Shown here: positions 20,452 to 25,248 of the stretch, piece by piece
How positions within the stretch are numbered: the stretch's first letter is position 1
Layout of the letters: every line of letters starts with the position of its first letter
Assembly: GCA_016839655.1 (NCBI GenBank)
Contig: JAEOTW010000348.1
Coordinates: forward strand, 1-25,248
Length of the DNA: 25,248 bases
Source: Promethearchaeota archaeon
GTDB lineage: Archaea > Asgardarchaeota > Lokiarchaeia > Sigynarchaeales > SOKP01
Reading direction: 5' to 3'
Program-made: the position numbers and the translations under genes
The notes under the pieces: generated by a model
The model's input: the letters and a program-made list of their open reading frames with translations, nothing else
Database searches by the model: none
What the model was told of the DNA's origin: nothing

Positions 20452-20477
20452 ATCGAGAAAAATTAAGTGTGAAAAAT

Positions 20478-21071
20478 ATGTCGAGTAGAACACAAAGAAA
20501 AACTCCGGATAATCTCTCAAAAGAATTCGAAGAGAAATGGAAAAATCCAATGAAAAAGCCATACCTTGAAAAAATTGTATTAAATATAGGTGTTGGTGTT
20601 GGTGGAGAGGAGTTAGAAAAAGCAGTAACAGTTTTGGAAACTATCGCAGAACAAAAAGCTATTAAAACAGTTTCAAAAACGAATGTAAAAGAATTTAATC
20701 TAAGAAAAGGACGCCCAATTGGAGCAAAAGTAACTGTTAGAGGTCAAAATGCTGATAAATTGCTTAAAAAATTGTTAATAGTTAATAATAATAAAATATT
20801 AAGAAGAAGTTTTGATGATTATGGAAATTTTGGATTTGGAATAACTGAACACATTTCTATACCTGGTATTGAATATGATAATAGAATAGGAATATGGGGA
20901 TTAGATTGTGTAGGCAGAGTAATAAAGCCTGGTATGAGAGTAAAATCTAGAAGAAAATCTCGAACTAAAGTACCTAGTCATCATTACGTATCTCGTGAAG
21001 AAACCCAATATTTTTTAAAACAAAATTTTGGTGTTCAAATAGTAGAAAAATTAGATTTAGAATTTATATAA
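20478..21071 (+). CDS. rpl5: Ribosomal protein uL5
   Basis: Large-subunit protein that holds 5S rRNA in the central protuberance and contacts P-site tRNA. Recognised from NPMKKPYLEKIVLNIGVGVGG, FNLRKGRPIGAKVTVRG and FGITEHISIPGIEYD. ATG at 20478 lies five bases after a GTGA motif; the in-frame GTG at 20469 is part of that motif, so I treat it as the ribosome binding site and not as the start. About 15 extra N-terminal residues precede the conserved block. Confidence 0.95.
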   Translation: MSSRTQRKTPDNLSKEFEEKWKNPMKKPYLEKIVLNIGVGVGGEELEKAVTVLETIAEQKAIKTVSKTNVKEFNLRKGRPIGAKVTVRGQNADKLLKKLLIVNNNKILRRSFDDYGNFGFGITEHISIPGIEYDNRIGIWGLDCVGRVIKPGMRVKSRRKSRTKVPSHHYVSREETQYFLKQNFGVQIVEKLDLEFI

Positions 21072-21077
21072 TTAAAT

Positions 21078-21084
21078 AAGGTGA
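21078..21084 (+). promoter_or_regulatory. Shine-Dalgarno site that decides the uS14 start
   Basis: AAGGTGA, a full match to the anti-Shine-Dalgarno core, six bases before the ATA at 21091. The same GTGA element with 5-7 base spacing precedes the starts of uL5, uS8, uL6 and eL19, so its position points to ATA as the initiation codon. Confidence 0.6.
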
Positions 21085-21090
21085 AATAAA

Positions 21091-21240
21091 ATACCACAAG
21101 GCAAGCATTATGGTAAAGGAGTTCGTGAATGCAGACGATGTCATACTCATAGAGGCATTATTAGACGTTATGGTTTATACATCTGTCGAAGATGCTTCTA
21201 TGAAATAGGAAAAGATATTGGATTTAAAAGATTTGAATGA
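21091..21240 (+). CDS. rps14: Ribosomal protein uS14, zinc-binding, apparent ATA start
   Basis: A 49-residue zinc-ribbon small-subunit protein at the expected place between uL5 and uS8. The archaeal S14 sequence is unmistakable: [18 protein letters not shown] and [21 protein letters not shown], with zinc ligands C14, C17, C32 and C35. In frame, a TGA stands at 21082-21084, followed only by AAT, AAA, ATA and then the conserved protein. The frame holds no ATG, GTG or TTG anywhere, so initiation must use ATA at 21091 (or another non-standard codon). AAGGTGA at 21078-21084 is correctly spaced for ATA. The alternative is a base error or mutation of ATG to ATA in this sequence. Confidence 0.92.
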
Positions 21241-21278: not shown

Positions 21279-21662
21279 ATGACAAATACAATAGCAGATG
21301 CATGTTGCGCTCTTAAAAATGCAGAAAAAGCACGAAAAACAGATGTAGTGATAAGTCCAGCTTCTAAAGTTCTACAACAGATTTTTCGAATATTTCAAAG
21401 GCACGCATATATTGGAGAATTCGAAAGGTATGATGATGGACGTCAGGGTAAATTCAAAATTGCCTTATTAGGTAAAATTAATGAATGTGCAGGATTAATG
21501 AGGTTAAATTATAAAACCTCTCAATTTGAATTGTTGGAAAGAAAATTATTGCCAGCACCTGGATTAGGATTAATAATAATGACCACAAATCAAGGAATTA
21601 TGACAATGAATGAAGCAGAAGAAAAGAATATTGGTGGTCATACATTATGTTATATCTATTGA
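21279..21662 (+). CDS. rps8: Ribosomal protein uS8
   Basis: A 127-residue small-subunit protein binding helix 21 of 16S rRNA; in some organisms its orthologue represses this cluster's mRNA. Recognised by TIADACCALKNAEKA at the N-terminus, VLQQIFRIFQRHAYIGEFE, and the closing IIMTTNQGIMTMNEAEEKNIGGH. The ATG follows GTGA by six bases. Confidence 0.96.
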   Translation: MTNTIADACCALKNAEKARKTDVVISPASKVLQQIFRIFQRHAYIGEFERYDDGRQGKFKIALLGKINECAGLMRLNYKTSQFELLERKLLPAPGLGLIIMTTNQGIMTMNEAEEKNIGGHTLCYIY

Positions 21663-25000: not shown

Positions 25001-25017
25001 TTTTAAGGTGAATAATG

Positions 25018-25248
25018 ATGACAAGAAAATTTCCTAAAAAAGTCCGGAAAATGAGAGGCAGACGCACACATGGATATGGGAGAGTAGGTCAACATAGAAA
25101 AACAGGGCAAAGAGCCGGAAAAGGAAAAACTACCCAATGGAAAAAAAGCAAAAAAAGTTACTATTTAAAACAAAAAGAACTCGGATTTCCAGATCCAGAT
25201 TGGGATTTTGGAAAGAAAGGTTTCAAGAGACCCCAGGATATTACCAGA
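25018..25248 (+). CDS. rpl15: Ribosomal protein uL15, truncated by window end
   Basis: The first 77 codons of the archaeal uL15 gene, cut by the window edge. The basic N-terminus RKFPKKVRKMRGRRTHGYGRVGQHRKTGQRAGKGK is the rRNA-binding arm, followed by KKSYYLKQKELGFPDPD, close to the archaeal/eukaryotic (RPL27A-like) version with G/GKG in place of bacterial repeats. Two ATG codons stand in a row (25015 and 25018); the second is six bases after AAGGTGA (25005-25011), matching the other genes' spacing. secY would be expected next. Confidence 0.93.
   Translation, partial: MTRKFPKKVRKMRGRRTHGYGRVGQHRKTGQRAGKGKTTQWKKSKKSYYLKQKELGFPDPDWDFGKKGFKRPQDITR

Follow-up and report, generated by a model that had tools for sequence, protein, structure and literature searches.

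The gene for ribosomal protein uS14 in the Lokiarchaeal DNA analysed here is very probably translated from an ATA codon (21091–21093), with initiation driven by a Shine–Dalgarno (SD) sequence. Judging from the genes compared, starting at AUA, AUU or AUC (AUH) would be a general but minor habit of these Lokiarchaeia. An AUU is also found at the apparent start of the gene for aIF1, the start-codon fidelity factor, and its occurrence across Lokiarchaeia is a stronger point than uS14 alone. To our knowledge, it is rare for any organism to conserve a non-AUG start in an essential gene for a ribosomal protein. Such genes are lost or shortened by gene callers restricted to ATG, GTG and TTG.

The probable uS14 start site and its conservation

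The window (the whole stretch of 25,248 nucleotides that was analysed) carries a Lokiarchaeal cluster of S10/spc ribosomal-protein genes, with uL5 and uS8 flanking uS14. When uL5 is compared, the closest named relatives of the window prove to be metagenome genomes of Lokiarchaea, with L001 nearest at 93% identity. The features around the start are the following.

20469..21071, + strand: uL5, upstream neighbour, starting at GTG 20469 or ATG 20478 (Pfam PF00281, PF00673 and NF003258 above cut-off)
21078..21084, + strand: Shine–Dalgarno sequence AAGGTGA, the TGA part of which doubles as the in-frame stop closing the uS14 frame upstream
21085–21090, + strand: spacer AATAAA between AAGGTGA and ATA
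21091..21093, + strand: ATA, putative uS14 start codon (ATA, ATT or ATC in 18 of 18 clade genomes)
21091..21240, + strand: uS14 (S14P/S29e) coding sequence, 49 codons and stop (NCBIfam NF004424 above cut-off)
21238–21240, + strand: uS14 stop codon TGA
21279..21662, + strand: uS8, downstream neighbour, ATG start (Pfam PF00410 and NF003115 above cut-off)

The match of the product to NF004424 (65.7 bits against a cut-off of 54, residues 2–48 on positions 7–53 of the 54 in the profile), together with the position of the gene between uL5 and uS8, identifies it as an archaeal uS14; its score against Pfam PF00253 was 24.7, slightly short of the cut-off of 27. Direct reading of the window places AAGGTGA exactly six bases ahead of ATA, as the initial annotation had it, and bears out the rest of its description of the site. 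The in-frame TGA at 21082–21084 leaves just AAT-AAA-ATA ahead of Pro-Gln-Gly-Lys (CCA-CAA-GGC-AAG), the frame is devoid of ATG, GTG and TTG both ahead of the gene and within it, and uS8 shares the TGA-N6-start layout. The accompanying suggestion that automatic annotation misses the gene stood in part: no open reading frame of at least 40 amino acids with an ATG, GTG or TTG start is listed at this place, but NCBI does have Promethearchaeota uS14 proteins that start with MPQGK (P0001 is 94% identical to uS14 of the window).

AGGTGA is complementary to the 3′ end of 16S rRNA, GGATCACCTCC, as read in the relatives G110, G118, G002, G001 and G139, and its position six bases ahead of ATA points to SD-led initiation. 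The duplex (−8.5 kcal/mol) is among the strongest of the 20 start sites scored in the cluster, being equalled by that of uL15 and exceeded by that of eS4 (−11.8 kcal/mol), and its strength may offset the weak start codon, which in the initial annotation could limit uS14 levels. We detected no altered anti-SD in the five genomes, where the 16S 3′ end is canonical. The initiator tRNA of G002 has a CAT anticodon, an intron after the anticodon and nothing odd, and an altered initiator tRNA as the cause of AUH starts was rejected on the basis of this one genome read; introns were the reason why an exact-pattern search for the tRNA matched only one of nine genomes. The intron of G002 (L116) follows the anticodon, and that of G139 (L269) seems to sit in the T arm.

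Given the canonical 16S ends and one ordinary initiator tRNA, we favour a plain model of initiation on uS14. By base-pairing with the 3′ end of the 16S rRNA, AAGGTGA would position the 30S subunit so that AUA, six bases further, occupies the P site, where the initiator tRNA would be accepted despite the mismatch at the third base, and methionine would presumably be inserted.

The available text of PMC7531240 names AUG, GUG and UUG as archaeal starts, with no AUA, AUU or AUC among them. SD-led initiation at GUG or UUG resembles that proposed for uS14 in combining an SD with a near-cognate codon, but AUH is absent from that account. Reviews describe SDs as rare in Lokiarchaea, and PMC7531240 suggests, in the same portion, that they have a low prevalence in the Lokiarchaeal genome that it looked at. 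The closest precedent that we found is atubA, a tubulin gene in a metagenome-assembled genome of the Kariarchaeaceae, for which an ATT start has been inferred behind a plausible ribosome-binding site (PMC13394414, as far as its accessible part goes). Like the starts of uS14 and aIF1, this is a putative AUH start in an Asgard gene, but it concerns a single gene of another lineage and was deduced from structure and homology, and the accessible part of the paper reports no conservation across species, whereas the AUH of uS14 is kept in 18 of 18 genomes. In our literature search, with most subscription papers and preprints outside its coverage, we came across no account of Lokiarchaeal genes for ribosomal proteins or aIF1 that start at AUH.

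When 227 genomes of the phylum were searched with a profile, 213 had a uS14 match. The uS14 loci of 70 of these were fetched, and the start was readable in 67 (the pattern missed three), which with the window makes 68 frames. An in-frame ATG, GTG or TTG is present in 49 of them. The 19 frames without a standard start belong to 17 genomes of one branch, to the window and to G110. In the clade of 18 made up of the 17 genomes and the window, the codon is ATA in nine, ATT in eight and ATC in one, with ATG, GTG and TTG in none, and the layout GGTGA-N6-ATH-CCN-CAR is kept throughout. A near-cognate codon is thus conserved at the homologous uS14 start in 18 of 18 genomes, with no standard start possible. 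Within the clade the third base drifts among A, U and C, G being found in none of the 18. Frame, SD, spacing and AUH codon are all conserved, and sister genomes, for example G101 and G139, carry ATG at the corresponding position. ATG in the close relatives would have marked the ATA as an error of a single assembly; none of the 18 has it, and only the more distant sisters do, which leaves initiation at ATA as the best reading.

In a tree of uL5, uS14, uS8 and uL6 the 18 members fall on one branch with a printed support of 97, a label that rerooting could have moved by one node, and the ATG-bearing G139 and G132 adjoin the clade. The tree implies at least three interchanges among ATT, ATA and ATC, and ATG was never seen within the clade. 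Since the clade is a single branch with ATG sisters, ATG appears to have been replaced, and AUH then retained.

Putative AUH starts in other genes

The gene for uL15, of which the window contains the beginning, has the same arrangement in part of the clade.

25005..25011, + strand: AAGGTGA ahead of uL15
25015..25248, + strand: uL15, cut by the window end, with ATG-ATG in the window

GGTGA-N6-ATT precedes uL15 in five of 11 clade genomes (G001, G002, G113, G119 and G125; loci L187–L205), and these five genes have no standard start until an ATG at about codon 13–14; in the other six there is ATG or GTG near the N-terminus. The conserved internal ATG is a possible alternative start of uL15. The stretch ahead of it resembles the N-terminus of uL15 from G099, an ATG starter. 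Pfam PF00828 matches the full-length uL15 of G001, and the Pfam search gave no match for the fragment in the window. Such genes seem to be few, as among 98 ORF pairs common to 400-kb chunks of G001 and G002 only uS14 and uL15 were without a nearby standard start. The 17 other genes of the cluster have standard starts in the compared loci, with uS19 of L002 as the one apparent exception; the missing standard start of uS3 in L001 and L002 proved to be an artefact in both.

The rule that AUH stands six bases after GGTGA came from GGTGA-opened ORFs in the chunks of G001 and G002. In a census of GGTGA-opened coding ORFs from five clade genomes, N6 was occupied by AUH in 16 of 30, by ATG in two, by GTG, TTG or CTG in eight and by another codon in four, while AUH was found at the control offsets N0, N3, N9 and N12 in 2, 4, 2 and 3 of 30, respectively. 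Among data fetched after the rule had been made, AUH was at N6 in 7 of 16 (P about 0.0008 for a background of 0.107), or 6 of 15 without the uL15 copy (P about 0.003). The genomes contributed unevenly: 5 of 6 in G125, 0 of 4 in G118, which is a clade member, and 0 of 1 in G112. Five genomes outside the clade gave AUH in 2 and ATG in 6 of 11 ORFs, a contrast with the clade that was not replicated in the held-out set, which was by itself too small for it. A census of SDs without stratification gave no clear start-codon signal.

The census turned up several further genes. That for a DJ-1/PfpI protein has GGTGA-N6-ATT, and TIGR01382 spans residues 2–167 of its product on profile positions 1–169; a FAH-family gene has GGTGA-N7-ATT in G125 versus GGTGA-N7-ATG in G002; the gene for D-aminoacyl-tRNA deacylase has ATT in G118 and ATC in G125; and the gene for the GTP cyclohydrolase MptA was also among them. 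By their sequences, AUH starts would be a recurring habit across several genes, and not a one-off of uS14. Outside the clade, a peroxiredoxin-like ORF of G139 (named by eye) has GGTGA-N6-ATT.

aIF1 and a possible regulatory circuit

We searched for the SUI1 factor to look for relaxed fidelity of start selection, and found the aIF1 gene itself to be without a standard start. Its product matches SUI1 (PF01253) with 67.3 bits against a cut-off of 25.5. The set consisted of 43 rows, G095–G157, which from our own class assignment we take as Lokiarchaeia and kin; 41 were readable, G001 (which reads N) and G141 (which is cut) being left out. In 32 of the 41 (loci L170–L186 and L207–L231), the stretch from the in-frame stop to the zinc knuckle contains no ATG, GTG or TTG. 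The aligned codon in these 32 is ATT in about 29, two rows having been corrected by eye; the exceptions are ATC in G108, ATA in G098 and ATA-ATT in G157. In most rows AUU is the sole near-cognate codon at the homologous start. The other nine rows have an in-frame standard start, and four of them are second copies.

Two SUI1 genes each were seen in G139 (L168/L186), G121 (L176/L185), G095 (L209/L230) and G130 (L213/L231), one copy of each pair having an in-frame GTG or ATG near its start. Among other Asgard aIF1 genes, 4 of 25 rows were without a standard start, four of the 25 being poorly anchored. The non-Lokiarchaeal loci (L234, L235, L247 and L248) offer ATA in G004, G007 and G084 and CTG in G194 as the sole near-cognate candidate ahead of the zinc knuckle, with GTG in several others.

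Ahead of the aIF1 AUU stands a conserved element, AAAGGTTGTGA, which pairs with the 16S tail via a bulge, most rows giving about −8 to −9 kcal/mol. In pairs of 24 sequences, the codons after AUU differ by 1,445 synonymous versus 600 non-synonymous single-base changes, where random changes would give 18% synonymous (the pairs are not independent of each other). The codons after AUU thus evolve as protein, which argues that the zinc knuckle is translated.

The E. coli gene for IF3, a protein unrelated to aIF1, is infC; like Lokiarchaeal aIF1, it is a fidelity-factor gene with an AUU start. uS14 is a different case, since the protein has no fidelity function and the codon can be AUA, AUU or AUC depending on the genome. 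The autocontrol of infC is abolished by changing AUU to AUG, according to the title of Butler et al. 1987 as cited in PMC9845219, and by analogy aIF1 may be under autocontrol as well. Eukaryotic eIF1 belongs to the same SUI1 family as aIF1 and also has a deliberately weak start site, limiting its own synthesis through a poor AUG context (PMC9082881 and PMC6237735, in the portions available). In eIF1, however, the weakness is that of an AUG in poor context met by scanning, whereas in Lokiarchaeal aIF1 it is that of a non-AUG codon after an SD-like element. The available portion of PMC6237735 also has aIF1 of other archaea discriminating against non-AUG starts.

The AUU of aIF1 fits the logic of self-control in infC and eIF1, in which case uS14 would follow the level of aIF1. 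In such a circuit, aIF1 started from AUU would be self-limiting, and the SD-led AUH genes (uS14 and sometimes uL15) would be read by the same factor; uS14 output would depend on aIF1 through its weak start, and ribosomal protein output would track the stringency of initiation. We put the circuit forward tentatively, as a possibility that we find somewhat doubtful. If true, it would give the archaea closest to eukaryotes their own equivalent of the autoregulation of both infC and eIF1. The apparent AUU start of aIF1 makes it testable whether all three domains share feedback on the stringency of initiation.

It is also possible, at not quite an even chance in our judgement, that these starts have no regulatory role: the start sites would be the same, but start selection would be relaxed, AUN being tolerated after a good SD and AUG drifting to AUH in AT-rich genomes. 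Drift of this kind would agree with AUH starts in unrelated genes, with the alternation of ATG and ATT among relatives in uL15 and the FAH gene, and with the changing third base of uS14, yet AUG, the best codon for an essential gene, is found in 0 of 18 uS14 genes. The AUU of aIF1 is, moreover, retained in most Lokiarchaeal rows, and 17 other genes of the cluster retain standard starts (apart from the apparent exception in uS19), both of which speak against a general relaxation.

Protein databases treat the aIF1 start unevenly. Among the 120 aIF1 clusters listed, of 190 found, 52 fail the pattern for an intact N-terminal zinc knuckle, and 14 start five residues ahead of the first Cys, with M replacing AUU; some annotation pipelines seem to truncate aIF1, and others to accept the AUU codon. 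The metagenome entries P0031, P0036, P0038 and P0039 start with MWKK, which would fit a caller reading TTG-TGA ahead of AUU as Met-Trp, that is, in the wrong genetic code.

Alternative readings of the uS14 frame

The drift of the third base would also fit an internal isoleucine in a protein started upstream, as ATA, ATT and ATC are all synonymous Ile codons. Translation would then pass the stop by TGA readthrough, or enter the frame by a +1 frameshift from the GTG in GGTGA, which lies one base ahead of it, and the uS14 protein P0002 does carry an in-frame upstream M, with an internal Ile at the place of ATH. We consider an upstream start very unlikely. All 18 genomes have the TGA in frame; the frame of the GTG is closed after two codons in both the window and G124, and gives differing short peptides elsewhere. 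The two codons ahead of ATH are not conserved as amino acids (N, K or R at −2; K, D, N or G at −1), while all 18 genomes encode P, Q, G and K at +1 to +4 and differ there by synonymous changes only, so that protein-level constraint sets in with the ATH codon. The ATG of the sisters G101 and G139, furthermore, stands at the very place of ATH. A frameshift from the upstream ATG in TAATGA was rejected because the motif is present in some loci only. RNA editing was rejected by argument, since U and C besides A would all need conversion to G.

The window is a single record, but a sequencing or assembly error, or a decayed uS14 with a functional copy elsewhere, has a negligible probability, as independent assemblies agree (ATH in 10 of 14 named loci), uS14 of the window is 88–98% identical to that of ten relatives across the full frame, and the gene is the only copy in the two single-contig genomes G001 and G002, where a search for a second copy to an E value of 10 gave only a chance match of 13 residues.

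Initiation of uS14 at ATA, as we read it in the window, may extend to a second lineage, that of G110 and G111, to judge by their sequences. The gene of G111 is ambiguous, with ATG directly after the SD and ATA six bases further, and so is that of G098, with GTG three codons ahead of ATA. G110 (L036) reads ATA-ATT-ATA-CCG where G111 (L054) reads ATG-ATT-ATA-CCG, and in both ATA stands six bases past GAGTGA.
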